DNA of 51,652 bases. It comes from Gammaproteobacteria bacterium. GTDB taxonomy: Bacteria; Pseudomonadota; Gammaproteobacteria; GCF-002020875. The notes beneath the pieces are model-generated. The model did not search any database, was not told the DNA's origin, and worked only from the letters and a program-made list of their open reading frames with translations. This document shows positions 15,989 through 24,039 of the stretch, in pieces; the first letter of the stretch is position 1; each line of letters opens with the position of its first letter. The DNA lies in NCBI GenBank assembly GCA_018648825.1, contig JABGQL010000111.1, positions 1 to 51,652 of the forward strand. Direction: 5' to 3'. The translations under genes were made by a program, and so were the position numbers.

Positions 15989-16855
15989 TTACTTACGGTA
16001 AGATGGACCGTTCCACTCTAGGCCATTACTCATATAGGTGTGAAAGAACTCTAAATTCCGATACTGCTCACTCTGTGCTTTGAATGGCTTTGCACGTACC
16101 TGCTTATTACAACCACCGTAGCGGCGGTGCAGAGTTCCCAAACCATCGCCTGATTTAGACTTACCGGACCATTTGGCTCGGAAGACCGGCCAACCACTCG
16201 CTTGCCCCAGCCCTGGAGAGAGCAATTCGCGGCGAACATGTTGACCAGACTGATACACATGACAGTCAGCACAGGCCAAATTGAGCTGTCCACGCTTGGC
16301 ATAGAAAAAGTGCTTACCCTGCTCATAAGCAGCCAGCGCCTTGGGATCATCTGGAATCACCACATTGATCTTCTTGCCCCGCGCCTCATAAGAGATATAG
16401 GCAGATAGGTGTGCCAACTTTCCCCTCTTCCACTTCAACGCCTTTTCACCATTATCGGTACGACAACGGTTAAGCTCCCCCTCTAATGTTACGACCTGTT
16501 CCCGCTGTGCATCCCAACGGGGGTATTCAGGGCGAATTGCAGAGACATTATCTCCAAAACAGCTGGAATAACCCTTACCATTTTTGAATGGCTTATTCCA
16601 CTCCTCCTCCCCTTCTTCAACAAAAGTCTCATAGGGAGGGAACTCTTCAATTGATTCCCACTGCTCACGAAAGCTCTCACTAATCGAGTAGACACCATTA
16701 TTAAAATCAGAAAATTCTGTATTTGGGAATTTCTCTACATAGTAAGTTTGAAATGCCTTGCGGTCATCTTCCGGTGAGGCTTGCACTACCACAGAACCCA
16801 TCACCAGTGCTGCAGCCCCCATACTCATCAGGATCTTGATACCCCTGCTCTTCAT
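15989..16855 (-). CDS. soxA: SoxA, L-cysteine S-thiosulfotransferase haem subunit
   Basis: 288 residues with a signal peptide (about 1-26). One CXXCH motif, CADCH (C195-H199), binds haem; the segment GGCNKQVRAKPF gives C249, the Cys that ligates the active-site haem and carries the persulfide in SoxA. The region where dihaem SoxA has its first motif instead has C99 and C131, which probably form a disulfide, so this is the single-haem type. With SoxX it attaches thiosulfate to the Cys of SoxY. It is the last gene of the sox operon and is followed by a terminator. Confidence 0.93.
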   Translation of the reverse strand: MKSRGIKILMSMGAAALVMGSVVVQASPEDDRKAFQTYYVEKFPNTEFSDFNNGVYSISESFREQWESIEEFPPYETFVEEGEEEWNKPFKNGKGYSSCFGDNVSAIRPEYPRWDAQREQVVTLEGELNRCRTDNGEKALKWKRGKLAHLSAYISYEARGKKINVVIPDDPKALAAYEQGKHFFYAKRGQLNLACADCHVYQSGQHVRRELLSPGLGQASGWPVFRAKWSGKSKSGDGLGTLHRRYGGCNKQVRAKPFKAQSEQYRNLEFFHTYMSNGLEWNGPSYRK

Positions 16856-16938
16856 CTTATTCTCCTTTGATCTTTCCCCCCACTCACTACATAGGTGTAG
16901 AGTAGGGTGGTATTCAACGGTTAACCGTTTTATTTTTT

Positions 16939-17253
16939 CTATTTAGACTTCTTGCTACCGGAACCCGTTTCCCCTTTGTTGTCCGTCCAACTCACCTTAA
17001 TTTCATCCCCCTTGCCACCTTCCACCTGAACTCTCAGATAAGGGTTTTTGGAGATGGTCGAGTTAAAGTCTGCTTGCAGGAATGGCACGCCATTCTTTTC
17101 TGCAACAACCGTCTGAATAAAGTGTGCCGGAATCTTCTCTCCACTCTTCTTATCCTTTCTTAACCCTGTCTCCATCGGATGACTCATTAAGCATTTAATA
17201 TCGATAGTCCCTTTCTTCGCTTTGGCTCTCAGCTTTACTGCATTTTTTGCCAT
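16939..17253 (-). CDS. soxZ: SoxZ sulfur-carrier subunit
   Basis: 104 residues without a signal peptide, as usual for SoxZ, which is exported together with SoxY. The segments IDIKCLMSHPMETGLR and IPAHFIQTV, and the C-terminal KVSWTDNKGETG, are family features. It pairs with SoxY to form the carrier that holds sulfur intermediates in the periplasm. It lies between soxY and soxA in the operon. The short palindrome AACGGTTAACCGTT at 16916-16929 just after its stop is not a convincing terminator. Confidence 0.93.
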   Translation of the reverse strand: MAKNAVKLRAKAKKGTIDIKCLMSHPMETGLRKDKKSGEKIPAHFIQTVVAEKNGVPFLQADFNSTISKNPYLRVQVEGGKGDEIKVSWTDNKGETGSGSKKSK

Positions 17254-17304
17254 TTCTATGTCCTCTTTAGCAATTCTTTCTATTCAATGGTATCTGCTTA
17301 ACAA

Positions 17305-17745
17305 CTAACCGCCACAACCGCCGATAGTAACCTTCACCTGTGTCTTGGCATGTACTGTACCGGATGCACTCTTCACTACACCATATACATCACCAGTCTT
17401 ACCCATCTTCAATCGAGTAGAGACAAATGCAACCGCCCCACCACTGACATTGTAGGTTGCTGCCAATGGGCGCTGATTAGCCGCAGCCACGATACTGATA
17501 CTCTCAACACCTTCAATACCCGTTGCATCAATGGTTACCGGCACAACTGCACCATTCTCTGCAATCTCTGGGGCCTTGATCTTGACTGCAGCACTGGCAC
17601 TGCCAGTATCACCTACGCTTTCAGACTCCATCACTGCCTTGGGCCAAGCTGCAAGTGCTGCACGAGGTGCCAGTAATCCTGCTCCTAGGGCTGCAGCAAT
17701 CGCACTACCAGCCAGGGTCCCTTTCATAAATAATCTTCTTTTCAC
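17305..17745 (-). CDS. soxY: SoxY sulfur-carrier subunit
   Basis: 146 residues. A Tat signal (KRRLFMKG) is followed by an alanine-rich hydrophobic segment. The mature protein ends in VTIGGCGG, the swinging arm whose Cys carries thiosulfate and sulfane sulfur through the Sox cycle. It works with SoxZ, is loaded by SoxXA and cleared by SoxB. With no soxCD in the operon, the sulfane sulfur is expected to be passed to sulfur globules rather than oxidised in place. soxX lies 24 bp upstream and soxZ 51 bp downstream. Confidence 0.95.
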   Translation of the reverse strand: MKRRLFMKGTLAGSAIAAALGAGLLAPRAALAAWPKAVMESESVGDTGSASAAVKIKAPEIAENGAVVPVTIDATGIEGVESISIVAAANQRPLAATYNVSGGAVAFVSTRLKMGKTGDVYGVVKSASGTVHAKTQVKVTIGGCGG

Positions 17746-17769
17746 GGTACTCTTCTCCTTTGGTATCTA

Positions 17770-18126
17770 TTACAGGCTGTAGATAAACTCAGTCACCTTA
17801 TCAATTTCAGAATCAGTCATGATGTTATGACGGCCAAATGGAGGCATCACGCTATGGGGATTTGCCGCCGTCGCATCCCAGATCTGGGCACGCAACTCAT
17901 CCTTATTGGGATAACGGTACTTCATCATCAGGATGGGGGGGGCAATATCTCCCGCTTGGGCTCCCCCCTCAATACGGTGACAACCGAGGCAGTTCCCTTT
18001 TTTCTTACTGAAGGCAAGCGCCTTACCCTCTTCAATATCGCCCGCCATCGCAACAGAGGAGCTCACCATTGCTACGGCAAAACCGGCTACTGCTGCTCCT
18101 GTTGAGATCCATTTACTCATTTTCAT
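17770..18126 (-). CDS. soxX: SoxX monohaem cytochrome c
   Basis: 118 residues with a signal peptide (about 1-28). One haem motif CLGCH (C46-H50) and a likely Met ligand at M93 in VMPPFGRHN give a class I cytochrome fold. It receives electrons released when SoxA joins thiosulfate to SoxY. The start has two close Met codons (MKM); an AAAGGAG site favours the first. It lies between the SoxK-like gene and soxY. It is shorter than SoxX of dihaem systems, in line with the single-haem SoxA. Confidence 0.92.
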   Translation of the reverse strand: MKMSKWISTGAAVAGFAVAMVSSSVAMAGDIEEGKALAFSKKKGNCLGCHRIEGGAQAGDIAPPILMMKYRYPNKDELRAQIWDATAANPHSVMPPFGRHNIMTDSEIDKVTEFIYSL

Positions 18127-18208
18127 GCTCTCTTTCTCCTTTGATCAGCCAACCATTACTCAATCAGTCAGCTGTTTTTTATTATTCATTATTCATTAAT
18201 TTAGCAAC

Positions 18209-18802
18209 TTAGAATCGTGGCCCAGCATTTCGCTGATCGACTGCTTGTATCTGTGCCAGCTCACCCTCTAAACGCGCCGTCTTTGCCAGCTTTGCCGCCT
18301 TACCATAATTCATGGCATCGGCTGCCTGCTCCGCCTTTTTCAGGAACTTGCCGGTGTTTTTCCACTCATGCCCCACCTTATTGGCTGCCTTGCGAGCCGC
18401 TTTGGCCAGCGCTATCTCATTTTCTGCCAACTTGATTTTGGCACTAATCTGACTCAGACGAGGCCCAGCGCCTGCTTGCTGTTTAGACTGATGCAGAGCA
18501 AGCTCCCCCTCTTGACGAGCCACCTCAACCAGCTTCATCGCCTTTTCATAATTGCCTTTTTTTGCAGCTTGATCGGCCTTCTTCAGGAACTTGCCTGAAT
18601 TTTTCCACTCATGTCCTGCTTCATTGGCTCTCTTCAGTGCCTTAGCAGCCTCCTGACGTGCCGTTTCAAACTCCCCCTGCTCCTCACCCACTACAGGAGC
18701 CCCCTGCGCCTTACTCTGCTGTGTCTCTTGCACTGGTGAAGCCGTACAGGCCACCAATGAAAGAGTAAAACAGATGGTTGCTATCTGCTTGATCGCTTTC
18801 AT
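18209..18802 (-). CDS. soxK: SoxXA-binding protein (SoxK/SAXB) lipoprotein with duplicated domain
   Basis: 197 residues from the ATG at 18802, which follows AAGGAGAAGGAAGG; an earlier in-frame start has no ribosome site. The N-terminus has a lipobox (SLVAC), so it is probably a lipoprotein. Two about 60-residue helical repeats each carry GHEWKN(S/T)GKFLKKA(D/E)QAA followed by a Y-KA-KL and EGELA segment. This motif is that of the SoxK/SAXB protein, which stabilises SoxXA; known members usually have one copy. It lies between soxB and soxX, as expected. The family call is based on motif and context; the tandem copy may hold two SoxXA units. Confidence 0.8.
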   Translation of the reverse strand: MKAIKQIATICFTLSLVACTASPVQETQQSKAQGAPVVGEEQGEFETARQEAAKALKRANEAGHEWKNSGKFLKKADQAAKKGNYEKAMKLVEVARQEGELALHQSKQQAGAGPRLSQISAKIKLAENEIALAKAARKAANKVGHEWKNTGKFLKKAEQAADAMNYGKAAKLAKTARLEGELAQIQAVDQRNAGPRF

Positions 18803-18856
18803 TTTCCTTCCTTCTCCTTTGTTACCATCTTTTATTACCATCTTTTTTATTTATAA

Positions 18857-20647
18857 TTAACTAATCACTTTACCCGAGTAGTTATTCAGACCTGGATTAC
18901 CCTTTGCATTTTTTAGCGCAGGCACATTCAGTTTCTTCACACTCGCTACCTTCTGATCTCTCAGATAGCCAGCCACCACATCCCAAATATCAGCCCCTGG
19001 TGACTGGGAACCCACAGTTGCCCAACCTGAGACCTTGTAACTCTTGCTCGCGTGAATCTTTTCTCCACTATTCAGCGTCATCTCACTGATACGTTTCCCC
19101 ATCGGAGCCAGCGGGTCGCATACGTAGTCGAGACCACCCACACGCACCATATCCCCACCTTGTTGGTAGTACGGGTCTTTGTTGAAGAGGTTGTCACACA
19201 CATCTTCGAGAATATTCTTGATATCACCACCCGACATCTCACGGGAGTAGGTCTCTGGATAGGTGATACAGGTCTGATCCAATACATTGTCCATTGTGAT
19301 CTTCTGCCCCTCCATCACTGTGGTTCCCCACCGGAAGCCGGGGGAGAGTGAGACCTGTGAGTCGTAATGGGTATTGAGGGCATCACAGATAATCTGGTCA
19401 AAGGTACCATTGAAGTTACCACGACGATAAAGCAGTTGATCTGCTGTCGCCAGCTCCTCATTCAGCCAACCACTATAGGGTTTACGGATATCGGTAATGA
19501 GTTGATTCATCCCTGCATCCGCCTCTAGTAAGTTGGAGAAGACGGGCAACAAGGAGTATTCATAGCCCTGCACCTTGCCGTTACGGATATCAAAATCCAT
19601 CACTCCGACAAATTTTCCATTGGAGCCGGCATTGGTGACCAAAGTCTCTCCACCCGGATTTTTCACCAGCGTTGGAGCTGGCATCCCATCATGGGTATGT
19701 CCACCAAAGATGGCATCAATACCGGAGACCACTGAGGCCATCTTCAAATCCACATCCATGCCATTGTGTGAGATCACCACCACCGCATCGGGGCGCTCAT
19801 TCTCACGCACCTCATCCACCATCGCCTGCATGGTGTCATCACTGATACCGAAGGTCCAGTCCGGCATAAAGCGGCTGGGGTTGGCAATCGGGGTATAGGG
19901 GAAGGACTGTCCAATAATAGCAATACGGGCACCATTCGCCTCTTTGATCACATAAGGCTTGAAGGCATGCCCGCTGTCTTCATTAAACCCTTCAAAGTCG
20001 GCATAACGATAATCAAACAGCGCCTCATCACGCACCTTAACGTTCTGTGCCACAAAGTCACCATTAAAGGCATTCACATTTTTCAGTACTTCATGGTCAA
20101 GGTAGGTGTACTCCCAGTGGCCGGTCATTACATCTACGCCCAGCAGATTACAGGCCTTAACCATATCCATACCACGTGTCTTGTAGGAGGTACCGCTCCC
20201 CTGCCAAGTATCACCGCCATCCAGCAACAGGCTATTACCTTCACCCGCTTCAGCACGCAGCTGATCAATCAAGGTCTTCATATGGGCAAAACCACCCACC
20301 TTGCCGTAGCGGCGCGCCGCCTCATCAAAGCCTAAATAGGTGAAGGCGTGACTCTCAATACTGTCTGCCTGAATACCAAAGTGGTTGAGGAAACGGTCTC
20401 CTACAATATGTGGAGCCTTACCCAGTCCATAGCCAAACCCCATATTGACATTGGGCTCTCTAAAATGGATGGGAAGCAACTGCGCATGGGTATCGGTAAA
20501 ATGAAGCAGGCGCACACTGCCCTTCTTCATTGGACGATTGTAGAGGGTTTCCGCTGGATTCTTATCTGCCAATGCAGCAGTGGGTACCAGACCGGCAGCA
20601 CCTGCCATTCCCATCAGGCGAATAAATTCGCGTCGACTCAGTGACAT
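18857..20647 (-). CDS. soxB: SoxB, thiosulfohydrolase
   Basis: 596 residues. A Tat signal (SRREFIRL) precedes a metallophosphatase-like domain, with metal-site motifs FTDTHAQL, LDGGDTWQGSGTS, TGHWEYTY and FGGHTHDG, then a 5'-nucleotidase-like C-terminal domain. SoxB uses two metal ions (Mn in known enzymes) to hydrolyse the sulfate group from the SoxY cysteine S-sulfonate. It is the second gene of the operon, after the cytochrome c5 gene, and 54 bp upstream of soxK. Length and motifs are normal for the family. Confidence 0.96.
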   Translation of the reverse strand: MSLSRREFIRLMGMAGAAGLVPTAALADKNPAETLYNRPMKKGSVRLLHFTDTHAQLLPIHFREPNVNMGFGYGLGKAPHIVGDRFLNHFGIQADSIESHAFTYLGFDEAARRYGKVGGFAHMKTLIDQLRAEAGEGNSLLLDGGDTWQGSGTSYKTRGMDMVKACNLLGVDVMTGHWEYTYLDHEVLKNVNAFNGDFVAQNVKVRDEALFDYRYADFEGFNEDSGHAFKPYVIKEANGARIAIIGQSFPYTPIANPSRFMPDWTFGISDDTMQAMVDEVRENERPDAVVVISHNGMDVDLKMASVVSGIDAIFGGHTHDGMPAPTLVKNPGGETLVTNAGSNGKFVGVMDFDIRNGKVQGYEYSLLPVFSNLLEADAGMNQLITDIRKPYSGWLNEELATADQLLYRRGNFNGTFDQIICDALNTHYDSQVSLSPGFRWGTTVMEGQKITMDNVLDQTCITYPETYSREMSGGDIKNILEDVCDNLFNKDPYYQQGGDMVRVGGLDYVCDPLAPMGKRISEMTLNSGEKIHASKSYKVSGWATVGSQSPGADIWDVVAGYLRDQKVASVKKLNVPALKNAKGNPGLNNYSGKVIS

Positions 20648-20809: not shown

Positions 20810-21133
20810 CTACTTGGACTGGGCAACCATATAATCAACAACGGCCTTTACAGCATCATCGCTCAATGATGATCCACCTTTAGGCATCATCACTGGATTT
20901 ACCTTAGAACCGTTCAATGCGGTGTCATAGAGCGCATCCATGCCCTTGGCAATACGTGAAGCCCATGCCGCCTTGTCTCCTACACCAGGGGCCTGCAGTG
21001 CTGGAGCAATTGGAGCAAAGTGGCAACTATTGCAGTTTGCCATGTAATCAGCAGCCGCATCTGCAGCAGCATTCGCAGAAATTGAAGCAGCAGCAATACC
21101 ACCCAATACCATCAATAAATTTTTCTTCATCAT
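20810..21133 (-). CDS. Cytochrome c5-type monohaem cytochrome
   Basis: 107 residues with a signal peptide (about 1-24). The motif CNSCH is followed by GVGDKAAWASRIAKGMDAL and MMPKGGSSLSDD, the pattern of cytochrome c5 with a Met ligand. It is the first gene of the sox cluster, 162 bp before soxB. It is a good candidate for the acceptor of electrons from SoxXA or FccAB, passing them to a terminal oxidase. The promoter region upstream has a candidate ECF promoter and a 13-bp palindrome. Confidence 0.87.
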   Translation of the reverse strand: MMKKNLLMVLGGIAAASISANAAADAAADYMANCNSCHFAPIAPALQAPGVGDKAAWASRIAKGMDALYDTALNGSKVNPVMMPKGGSSLSDDAVKAVVDYMVAQSK

Positions 21134-21234: not shown

Positions 21235-21263
21235 TACGACCCACGACTATACTTGGTTATTCC
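21235..21263 (-). promoter_or_regulatory. Candidate ECF-sigma promoter of the sox operon
   Basis: On the minus strand GGAATAAC (21263-21256) is followed 15 bases later by GTCGTA (21240-21235). The same GGAATAA motif, with TCRT 16-17 bases later, lies before the ECF sigma gene and the hao-like gene. Pattern-based proposal. Confidence 0.35.
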
Positions 21264-21280
21264 AAAACAGACGATTTTTT

Positions 21281-21715
21281 TTACCGAGAAACATAAGGCA
21301 CATAGGCAAACCCTTGCTGCTGTAAATTGATCAGTGTCAAAATACCACTTTCAACCACCTCATCTACAGCACTACCCAATAGGTCCTGTTTCAGATCCAA
21401 ACCTCGCTGTTGCACACTATCCATCCCCAACAAAAACAGTACTCCATTACGTCGTAGCGACACAATCCGTTGCTGTAAATGTGCTTCATACAACGCTCTA
21501 GAGAAGAGCAGCACACCATCCCCCTCCAACAGCACCTTGATGGTCGCATCCGCCTGCTGCTCCTTGATATCCACTAGGTGATTCTCTAGATTTAGCAGGG
21601 CAATATGCTGTCGATAGTGATCTGCAGTTGCAATGTGATAGACCACCTGCACCCTCTCCCCCTGCGCCATACTCATCGTGGGCAGAAAGGCGATCAGTAA
21701 TAAAATCAGGCGCAC
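21281..21715 (-). CDS. Exported DsrE-like protein lacking the active cysteine
   Basis: 144 residues from a GTG at 21715, 5 bp after the stop of the anti-sigma gene. A longer in-frame form would overlap that gene by 170 bp and begins with atypical residues, so the short form is preferred. It has a signal peptide (about 1-18). The rest matches the DsrE-like fold: VVYHIATAD, KVLLEGDGVLLFSRA, and a final INLQQQGFAYVPY. At the place where DsrE proteins and the neighbouring anti-sigma domain have Cys it has G97 (FLLGMDS), so it probably binds rather than transfers sulfur. It may be the periplasmic partner of the anti-sigma DsrE domain. Confidence 0.72.
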   Translation of the reverse strand: MRLILLLIAFLPTMSMAQGERVQVVYHIATADHYRQHIALLNLENHLVDIKEQQADATIKVLLEGDGVLLFSRALYEAHLQQRIVSLRRNGVLFLLGMDSVQQRGLDLKQDLLGSAVDEVVESGILTLINLQQQGFAYVPYVSR

Positions 21716-21719
21716 TGAA

Positions 21720-22460
21720 TCAGATCTGGATATAGGACCACCCCTGCTGCTGGCGCTGAACGATCTGTGAAATTCCCGACCCCGCACGCACCACCTCTGG
21801 CAACAGTCGGACTTTGCCGAGCCCATCTGACTCCAACTGATCAATGGTACGCTGGCAGGCGACAAAACGAAGGTTACTGTTATCTCCACTCATCTCCTGA
21901 ATACGCTCGCTGAATGAGGTTACACCCGAACGGTATAGATCCATTCCATCCCCATTGGCTATCACCTCAACAACGGTGGCCTGACTCAACTGCTGCGTCT
22001 GCTCCAGCAGTGAATCGACATCATCCAGTAACTTGCCCATACGCAAGGGGTTGGATGAGGTGAGGTGAAACACAATCCTCAGTGCTGCAGCCTCTTCTGC
22101 CTGCTGGAAGGCGACCTGAGAAATCGCCTGCTGCTGCGTCACGCTGTATTGTGGTCCTTGTAACGGTAGCTGCTCAGAGAAGTGAAACAGCAGCACCCCC
22201 ACTATCAGAGAGGCTGCCAACGCACCCCATCTCCTGTTGTTCGACAGGCTACGGTGGCGAATGATCCGCGGTGGCGGTGTAACCGTACGATAAGCCGAAC
22301 GTAACAGCTCTTTAGTACGGATCAACTCACACACCCGCTGTGTCATTTGTGGCTGCTTACTGAGCTCAGAGAGAATCTCGATCCTCTCTTCCGACTCTAG
22401 TTCACCATCAATAAACGCATTCAGAATCTCTTCTGAAATTTCATGCTCATAATCGCTCAT
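21720..22460 (-). CDS. Anti-sigma factor fused to a periplasmic DsrE-like domain
   Basis: 246 residues. The N-terminal part (about 8-60) has the anti-sigma pattern LNAFIDGELESEERI and lacks a full zinc motif. One transmembrane helix (about 77-98) follows. The C-terminal domain (about 127-246) is DsrE-like: RIVFHLTSS, VVEVIANGDGMDLYRSG, FVACQRTI with a candidate active C202, and IVQRQQQGWSYIQI. The sigma-binding part is in the cytoplasm and the DsrE domain in the periplasm, so sulfur-containing compounds could control release of the sigma factor. It follows the ECF sigma gene by 13 bp. Fusion of these two parts is, as far as I know, not a described type. Confidence 0.78.
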   Translation of the reverse strand: MSDYEHEISEEILNAFIDGELESEERIEILSELSKQPQMTQRVCELIRTKELLRSAYRTVTPPPRIIRHRSLSNNRRWGALAASLIVGVLLFHFSEQLPLQGPQYSVTQQQAISQVAFQQAEEAAALRIVFHLTSSNPLRMGKLLDDVDSLLEQTQQLSQATVVEVIANGDGMDLYRSGVTSFSERIQEMSGDNSNLRFVACQRTIDQLESDGLGKVRLLPEVVRAGSGISQIVQRQQQGWSYIQI

Positions 22461-22473
22461 GTGCTGCTCTCTC

Positions 22474-23058
22474 TTATTTCATCACTTTGAGGTGTGATCG
22501 TTTTCTCTTCTGCTGATGCTGCCCTGCATCCTGCTGAATATGGCGGCTCAATGCATCACGTGCACGGGCCAACCGACTCATCACTGTACCGATCGGAATC
22601 TCAAGAATGTCAGCCGCCTCTTTGTAGCTCACACCCTCAATATCCACCAATGAAATAATCATCCGTTGACTCTCTTTCAACTGAGCCAACCCAGCGCGAA
22701 CTTGCAGAATCTCCTCTGCACGCTCAATATCTCGCTCGGCGGGAGCCTCCTCCTCCATATGGTCCTCAAGCGACTCTACATCCACCTGTGGCTTCATCTT
22801 CCTGAAGTGTTTTCGGTAAGCGTTCTGCATAATCCGAAACATCCAGGCATCTAAGGCATCCTCAGCACGCAGCTGATCAACCTTCTCCAGCGCTGTAATA
22901 ATGGTCTCTTGGCAGAGGTCATCTGCTTGATAACGATCATGGCACCACGAGTAGGCCACACGAAACAGTCGTTCCCGCGAATCAACAATGCGCTTCCGCA
23001 CCGTACCACTTTTTGAAAACAGGCGAATAATTTCCACCGGCTCCTCCTCACTTTCCAT
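22474..23058 (-). CDS. ECF-family RNA polymerase sigma factor
   Basis: 194 residues. Region 2 includes YQADDLCQETIITALEKVD and WMFRIMQNAYRKHFR. Region 4 includes LVDIEGVSYKEAADILEIP and GTVMSRLARARDAL, the helix-turn-helix for the -35 element. The linker is acidic and the C-terminus basic. It is the first gene of a three-gene operon with the anti-sigma/DsrE fusion and the DsrE-like protein. A GGAATAA motif lies upstream, as before the sox and hao-like genes, which would fit autoregulation. The inducing signal is unknown; the neighbours suggest sulfur. Confidence 0.9.
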   Translation of the reverse strand: MESEEEPVEIIRLFSKSGTVRKRIVDSRERLFRVAYSWCHDRYQADDLCQETIITALEKVDQLRAEDALDAWMFRIMQNAYRKHFRKMKPQVDVESLEDHMEEEAPAERDIERAEEILQVRAGLAQLKESQRMIISLVDIEGVSYKEAADILEIPIGTVMSRLARARDALSRHIQQDAGQHQQKRKRSHLKVMK

Positions 23059-23069
23059 CGGTTATAGAG

Positions 23070-23096
23070 ATGATGCAACAGCACCCATTTTATTCC
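23070..23096 (-). promoter_or_regulatory. Candidate autoregulated promoter of the ECF operon
   Basis: GGAATAA (23096-23090, minus strand) is followed 16 bases later by TCAT (23073-23070). It matches the elements seen before the sox and hao-like genes. The -10-like element lies very close to the start codon at 23058, so the leader would be short. Confidence 0.3.
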
Positions 23097-23177
23097 TCAT
23101 TCCAGTTCAAAATCAAACAGACGATGCACTTGAGTATGGTAGAGTCTCTGGCCCTTCCAACTGAGGAGTCTAGGATA

Positions 23178-23513
23178 ATGAGAGAGTTGATTGAAACTAT
23201 AATCCTAATTGGGCTACCTGCTGTTACTGTACTCTTCTGGTTTAGCAGCATGCGTGCCCGTGAACGCGCCATCACAGTCTGCCGCCTGACCTGCAAAAAT
23301 TATGATGCACAACTGCTGGATCAGACCGTCTCTCTCAAACGGATTCGGCCGGGGCGCGACCCACGCGGCCGCATGCAGCTTGAACGCCTCTATTGCTTCG
23401 ACTACAGCTATGATGGAATTGAGCGAATGCAGGGCAGCATCACTATGAAGGGGCCTTACTCAGATTTGGTCAATCTTGAACCACGCCCAGAAGAGTTAAT
23501 CGTAGTAAACTAA
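23178..23513 (+). CDS. DUF3301-like membrane-anchored protein
   Basis: 111 residues from the ATG at 23178, preceded by GAGGAG; longer in-frame starts have no ribosome site and run into the sigma-gene promoter. A single N-terminal helix (about 4-22, LIETIILIGLPAVTVLFWF) is followed by a cytoplasmic domain with ERAITVCRLTCK, LLDQTVSLKRI and LYCFDYSYDG segments, the pattern of gammaproteobacterial DUF3301 proteins. Function unknown. It is divergent from the ECF operon and is followed 5 bp later by a 32-residue membrane ORF. Confidence 0.8.
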   Translation: MRELIETIILIGLPAVTVLFWFSSMRARERAITVCRLTCKNYDAQLLDQTVSLKRIRPGRDPRGRMQLERLYCFDYSYDGIERMQGSITMKGPYSDLVNLEPRPEELIVVN

Positions 23514-23745: not shown

Positions 23746-24039
23746 ATGTTTTCACAAAATATTAGCTGCGAAGATGCACAGCAACTACTAAAAGAGAGTA
23801 ATGGTCAACTCGTCGATGTACGCACGCCCATGGAGTATGCGCAGGGGTGCCTCCCCGAGGCGGTCAATGTTCCGCTGCAATCCATTCAGACTGCTGCCGA
23901 TGTACTGGACAAACAGCGCCCTGTCATCCTCTACTGTGTTAGTGGTGCGCGCACACGGATGGCGAAGAGCTATCTAGAGTCAATGGGGTTTGAGGATGTG
24001 CATGACCTTGGATCATTCCGCAACTATATGAACTGTTGA
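23746..24039 (+). CDS. Single-domain rhodanese-like sulfurtransferase
   Basis: 97 residues, cytoplasmic. The rhodanese pattern is complete: LVDVRTPMEYAQGCLPEAVNVPL, then the active loop CVSGARTRMA with the catalytic Cys, and a final GFEDVHDLG. It would move sulfane sulfur between thiols or to cyanide. It is monocistronic, followed by a strong terminator. It could handle sulfur from the Sox or Fcc pathway, but general housekeeping is equally likely. Confidence 0.87.
   Translation: MFSQNISCEDAQQLLKESNGQLVDVRTPMEYAQGCLPEAVNVPLQSIQTAADVLDKQRPVILYCVSGARTRMAKSYLESMGFEDVHDLGSFRNYMNC

Follow-up and report, generated by a model that had tools for sequence, protein, structure and literature searches.

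The locus described here raises the question of whether an ECF sigma factor and a membrane anti-sigma factor carrying a DsrE-like domain, encoded next to the sox genes of a gammaproteobacterium, may link sulfur compounds in the periplasm to the expression of thiosulfate oxidation genes. Extracytoplasmic sulfur sensing by sulfur oxidisers has been called poorly understood (PMC11582611). Sulfane-sulfur-responsive ArsR-type repressors of sox are already known (PMC10451225, PMC11582611, PMC12423496); the sox regulators dealt with in the papers cited are all of this type, and come from an alphaproteobacterium.

The whole stretch of DNA analysed, 51,652 nucleotides in length, is hereafter called the window. 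The genes of interest are found on its minus strand, in the order ECF sigma factor, anti-sigma-DsrE fusion, exported DsrE protein, cytochrome c, soxB, and SAXB-soxX-soxY-soxZ-soxA. The original prediction that a set of three genes lies beside the sox operon was borne out: all three are on the minus strand, directly upstream of the cytochrome c-soxB pair, and the sox genes span positions 15989-20647. The features are the following:

22474..23058, minus strand: ECF sigma factor, 194 aa (Pfam Sigma70_r2 48.6 bits, Sigma70_r4_2 54.9 bits)
21720..22460, minus strand: anti-sigma factor fused to a predicted periplasmic DsrE domain, 246 aa (AlphaFold2, Foldseek, profile match)
21723..22082, minus strand: DsrE domain of the anti-sigma factor, residues 127-246 (AlphaFold2, Foldseek, profile match)
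21855..21857, minus strand: codon of residue C202 of the anti-sigma factor (invariant, 57/57)
21281..21715, minus strand: exported DsrE protein, 144 aa, with GTG start and signal peptide (PF02635 27.5 bits, cut-off 22.7)
20810..21133, minus strand: exported c-type cytochrome (Cytochrome_CBB3 42.7 bits; same position in L007, the nearest relative of the window)
18857..20647, minus strand: soxB (TIGR04486 838 bits, cut-off 550)
15989..18841, minus strand: SAXB, soxX, soxY, soxZ and soxA (NF052674, TIGR04488, TIGR04484, gene order)

The TIGR04488 match in the sox set (121.4 bits) is slightly below the cut-off of 125, and Pfam SoxY is above cut-off; soxX and soxZ were named by sequence and gene order. 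The small ORF was first listed as 21281-21889, with too early a start; the exported protein begins at a GTG at 21715, directly after the anti-sigma stop. A small protein, rhodanese-like by eye (23746-24039), and a DUF3301 gene (23070-23513) are found near the sigma gene, and both are kept in L007. Two dsrA matches (G000:C74 and G000:C81) were identified in the window genome.

The sigma protein features Sigma70_r2 and Sigma70_r4_2 regions only, both above the Pfam cut-offs, an arrangement which identifies it as an ECF factor in agreement with the first assignment, and is similar to the solved ECF sigmas SigH, SigE, SigW and RpoE. The anti-sigma protein was modelled by AlphaFold2 (pLDDT 84.8, mostly above 92 in residues 127-246) as a series of cytoplasmic helices (10-58), a transmembrane helix at about 79-93, a linker helix (107-124) and a DsrE fold (127-246). 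Although Pfam makes no DsrE call for the window protein, the DsrE-like half that had been proposed was recovered by fold comparison. The best Foldseek match of this half is MTH1491 (1l1s; E=1.1e-9, TM on the target 0.91), followed by ST0148 (2pd2) and then DsrEFH (2hy5; E=9.7e-4 for 2hy5_C), and a profile match to 1l1s has E=9e-16. Matches of the N-terminal domain to zf-HC2 (14.2 bits, cut-off 22.2) and NF052375 (19.6 bits, cut-off 100) are weak; the one to zf-HC2 recurs in all five full-length homologues making up the A1 profile, with which homologues were searched.

Fifty-seven copies of the fusion were extracted with their surroundings for alignment and neighbourhood counts. The mean charge in these sequences is +2.2 before and -1.0 after the single transmembrane helix, and by the positive-inside rule the N-terminus is therefore presumably inside and the DsrE half periplasmic, a pattern supporting the claim that the sigma-binding part and the DsrE part face opposite sides of the membrane. 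As in the class I anti-sigma factors RseA, RsiW and RskA, a single-pass protein would thus combine a short N-terminal part, predicted to bind sigma, and a periplasmic sensor half, and its gene is located directly after that of an ECF sigma factor; unlike these proteins, the anti-sigma factor has DsrE as its sensor half. This domain has the fold and the active-cysteine position of DsrE/DsrEFH/TusBCD and MTH1491/ST0148. The DsrE and TusBCD proteins known so far carry sulfur in the cytoplasm and are soluble, whereas the window domain forms the outer part of an anti-sigma factor in the membrane.

C202, singled out early on as the candidate active residue, closes strand 197-202 and is followed by helix 203-214 in the AlphaFold2 model, which is the position of the active cysteine in DsrE. 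It is invariant in all the 57 homologues, and so is W241. Exactly one cysteine is found C-terminal of the membrane helix in each of the sequences, which speaks against an intramolecular disulfide; fold and single invariant cysteine would fit the loading of sulfur onto C202. C202 might instead sense thiol oxidation or damage, including glutathione mixed disulfides, with sox control belonging to an oxidative or envelope response. Thiol-based anti-sigma switches, such as RsrA, do exist, and a lone periplasmic cysteine can become S-thiolated. This explanation is nonetheless improbable, in view of the one periplasmic cysteine per protein, of the lack of a conserved zinc-anti-sigma cysteine pair in the alignment of the 57 homologues, and of the predicted targets, which are mainly sox, DsrE, porin and YeeE genes and include no recognised redox-defence genes. 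A zinc-anti-sigma redox switch was rejected for want of the cysteine pair.

Computation shows a DsrE fold with one invariant periplasmic cysteine, constant pairing with a sigma gene, a promoter motif common to the genes concerned, and occurrence almost only in Sox+ genomes. On this basis we consider it probable, though well short of assured, that thiosulfate oxidation is under an ECF sigma/anti-sigma switch which spans the membrane and responds to sulfur, and in which sulfur loading of C202 frees the sigma factor. The N-terminal helices of the anti-sigma factor would retain the sigma factor in the cytoplasm, and one membrane helix would connect them to the DsrE domain in the periplasm. When reduced sulfur is present, C202 would take sulfane sulfur as a persulfide or related adduct, either directly or via the exported DsrE protein. 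The change would be relayed across the membrane, and sigma freed by conformational change or by proteolysis. The freed sigma would transcribe its own operon, the exported DsrE gene (in many lineages the porin gene too), soxB and the soxX operon, and in some genomes a YeeE-type sulfur transporter as well. The chemistry of the signal, the role of C202 and the activating direction of the response are what we infer from these features. Whether the system is a general periplasmic sulfane-sulfur sensor, in which a single DsrE cysteine is read by the anti-sigma factor and turns on the sox regulon in some 40 families without sulfur import, is a wider proposition which might with equal chance prove right or wrong.

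Of the 369 genomes sampled from the window's class, 66 have the fusion when only full-length matches to the A1 profile are counted; they belong to 41 families. A phylum-wide sample added only two fusions (L222 and L223), both from the same class. Spread of the fusion beyond the class was discarded: the other phylum hits resemble exported DsrE proteins, and the stretches retrieved around them contain no corresponding sigma gene. In plasmid records, matches are confined to the DsrE part. Exported DsrE relatives of two Bacteroidota (L015:6187-8345 and L021:6728-8695) adjoin cytochromes resembling by eye the thiosulfate dehydrogenase TsdA.

SoxB genes (TIGR04486) were identified in 65 of the 66 fusion genomes versus 87 of the 303 others (Fisher p=1.7e-28, not corrected for relatedness; because the sampled genomes are related, p-values overstate independence). 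The dsrA gene is also associated with the fusion, less tightly than soxB. A link to dsr instead of sox is disfavoured, since the fusion is present in 1/12 Dsr+ Sox- genomes versus 51/105 Dsr+ Sox+ genomes. Within the window's genus, genomes G003 and G005 have dsrA and lack both soxB and the fusion; G002 has soxB and the fusion. A link to truncated Sox systems lacking SoxCD was set aside, SoxC being found in 8/65 fusion genomes and in 22/87 other Sox+ genomes (p=0.06, not significant). One may still regard the DsrE domain as an inherited structural appendage devoid of sensing, and the sox link as incidental linkage, and in some genomes the sigma/anti-sigma module is indeed located away from both sox and exported DsrE genes. 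This view is strongly disfavoured and has very little chance of being correct: it is at odds with the invariance of both cysteine and tryptophan, with the almost constant presence of soxB in fusion genomes, and with the occurrence of the sigma motif upstream of soxB genes located on separate contigs.

The motif in question is of the bipartite ECF type, GGAATA-N15/16-CGTCT, and is found upstream of the sigma genes and of the divergent DsrE-porin operon. The form GGAAT-N17-CGTC is exact in 22 of 46 sigma upstream regions, and the motif recurs ahead of a divergent DsrE or SoxB-like gene. A PWM trained on sites of the module only (sigma, divergent DsrE/porin) was then applied to soxB loci elsewhere in the genomes. 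Scores of 10 or more within 300 bp upstream of soxB were obtained in 14/40 fusion genomes and in 0/40 Sox+ controls without fusion, and soxB upstream scores differ between the two sets (Mann-Whitney p=2e-4). Exact motifs in the sox region were similarly found in 15/40 fusion versus 2/40 control genomes; the reversed pattern was found in 1/40 and 2/40, respectively. Sites at soxB are on the same strand as the gene, 65-265 bp from the match start, and a second set of sites is located ahead of soxX or soxY operons. The results at soxB, soxX and soxY are the strongest evidence for sigma control of sox; taken with the genome-wide co-occurrence, they support the functional link to sox proposed at the outset. 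Judged on sequence data, the sigma/anti-sigma pair most likely controls sox in response to a periplasmic sulfur signal. In 26/40 fusion genomes, the 300 bp next to soxB contain no clear site; transcription of some of these soxB genes may start at a more distant upstream promoter or in another sox unit.

The motif was also found just upstream of two YeeE/YedE (PF04143) genes near sox (L150:12237-13376 and L170:3088-4305). Proteins of the YeeE family import or signal sulfur in Hyphomicrobium (PMC11582611). In two genomes belonging to the same genus (L240:3448 and L241:3624), a conserved motif site precedes the gene of a 122-aa exported protein of unassigned function.

Two candidate sites were identified in the window:

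23072..23096, minus strand: candidate promoter of the sigma operon, GGAATA-N15-CATC (PWM 12.5, matrix from other genomes)
21238..21263, minus strand: weak candidate promoter of cytochrome c-soxB, GGAATA-N16-GGTC (one mismatch, PWM 7.8)

The -35 part of the first, GGAATAAAATG, is retained in L007, at a lower score (5.2). The second is tentative, because the site is not conserved in L007. One-mismatch sites are no commoner than in background (4 found in the window versus 4.6 expected in shuffled sequence), so that only the positions of the window sites count in their favour. The soxB site being weak and unconserved, sox control in the window genome rests mainly on gene order and on the family.

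ECF control of sulfite oxidation is already known, as the ECF26 factors RpoE1 and RpoE4 of S. meliloti drive the sulfite dehydrogenase gene sorT (PMC3511301). As is proposed for the window, an ECF sigma with an adjacent anti-sigma gene acts in S. meliloti on a periplasmic sulfur-oxidising enzyme, the inducing condition being thiosulfate or sulfite (PMC3511301). Unlike what is predicted for the window pair, RpoE1 and RpoE4 control sorT and not sox, and no DsrE domain has been reported on their anti-sigma factors; the DsrE fusion was found, in the phylum sample, only in the window's class. By analogy, sulfite or thiosulfate might be the signal in the window too, bound directly as suggested for RpoE1/RpoE4, in place of sulfane sulfur on a cysteine. 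Metabolism of thiosulfate and taurine elicits the RpoE1/RpoE4 response, with sulfite as the proposed signal, but added sulfite gave no induction (PMC3511301). That hits of the phylum sample outside the window's class are exported DsrE proteins and not fusions also counts against direct binding. Thiosulfate is the substrate of Sox, which favours direct binding, whereas an invariant cysteine within a DsrE fold suggests sulfur loading, and direct binding is on the whole unlikely.

Sulfur loading of C202 would bring the switch close to SoxR/sHdrR and SoxT1B of Hyphomicrobium denitrificans, where sulfane sulfur controls the genes of thiosulfate oxidation and the circuit includes a YeeE-type protein (PMC11582611, PMC10451225). 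SoxR and sHdrR are ArsR-type repressors, and need sulfur imported into the cytoplasm; in contrast, the sensor proposed here would face the periplasm and act via sigma. In the openly accessible literature, the full ECF reclassification excluded, no earlier description of an ECF sigma associated with DsrE, sox or persulfide was found; openly accessible sources likewise record neither an anti-sigma factor with a DsrE domain nor sox genes under an ECF sigma, which agrees with the claim that no sensor of such kind had been described. If the reading is true, an anti-sigma factor whose outer half is DsrE would represent a new type of sensor, DsrE proteins would gain a role in signalling, and external sulfur would reach transcription directly, with no need for import. 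The question is directly testable, as it involves one cysteine, one promoter motif and defined predicted targets in many genomes.

The third gene of the set encodes a protein with a signal peptide identified by eye, MRLILLLIAFLPTMSMA, and an AlphaFold2 model (pLDDT 94.1) matching 1l1s in Foldseek (E=5e-8) as well as the DsrE structures 2pd2 and 2hy5. As originally noted, the position corresponding to C202 is occupied by glycine in the window protein. Glutamate is found in L007 and L087, and these three are the only exceptions among 35 exported DsrE neighbours, the other 32 of which keep the cysteine. The suggestion that a cysteine-less protein acts as co-sensor or competitor is therefore not general, the loss being lineage-specific, and the general partner is a cysteine-bearing exported DsrE. 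The sigma gene is directly upstream of the fusion in 57/57 loci, and an exported DsrE homologue is found at 3.5 kb or less in 37/57.

Such a partner may itself carry the signal. The anti-sigma DsrE domain would then be no chemical sensor, and an exported DsrE protein loaded with sulfur would dock on it, in a mixed DsrE oligomer, and trigger or block sigma release. Vicinity of the two genes in many loci and frequent presence of the cysteine in the exported protein fit the idea, and a similar C-terminal motif, QQQG(W/Y/F), is common to both DsrE proteins. DsrE proteins such as DsrEFH, moreover, function as oligomers. Docking is possible, yet we regard it as rather less plausible than direct sensing at C202: 20/57 loci have no exported DsrE gene nearby, though unlinked copies exist, and the cysteine, lost by the exported protein of the window, is never lost by the anti-sigma factor.

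In the commonest layout, genes for exported DsrE and then a porin (PF07396) are divergent from sigma and anti-sigma; in other loci, window included, sigma, anti-sigma and DsrE form a single run. The Porin_O_P outer-membrane porin often follows the exported DsrE gene in a divergent operon with the sigma motif (L062, L073, L101 and about 23 other loci), and perhaps serves as the pore by which thiosulfate or other sulfur oxyanions enter. In L057, L064 and L072 the divergent gene, with the sigma motif in front, encodes a member of the phosphoesterase family related to SoxB. These exported proteins of the 5'-nucleotidase family (L064:5286-7460, L072:4494-6626, L057:1-1362; 710-724 aa where complete) score 175-180 bits against TIGR04486 in L064 and L072, far under the cut-off of 550, and are possibly unnamed SoxB paralogues. 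In two loci (L008:9883-11279 and L009:9371-10671), exported DsrE genes are directly followed by a further ECF sigma gene, unlike the first, and by the membrane anti-sigma-like gene that goes with it, both recognised by eye.
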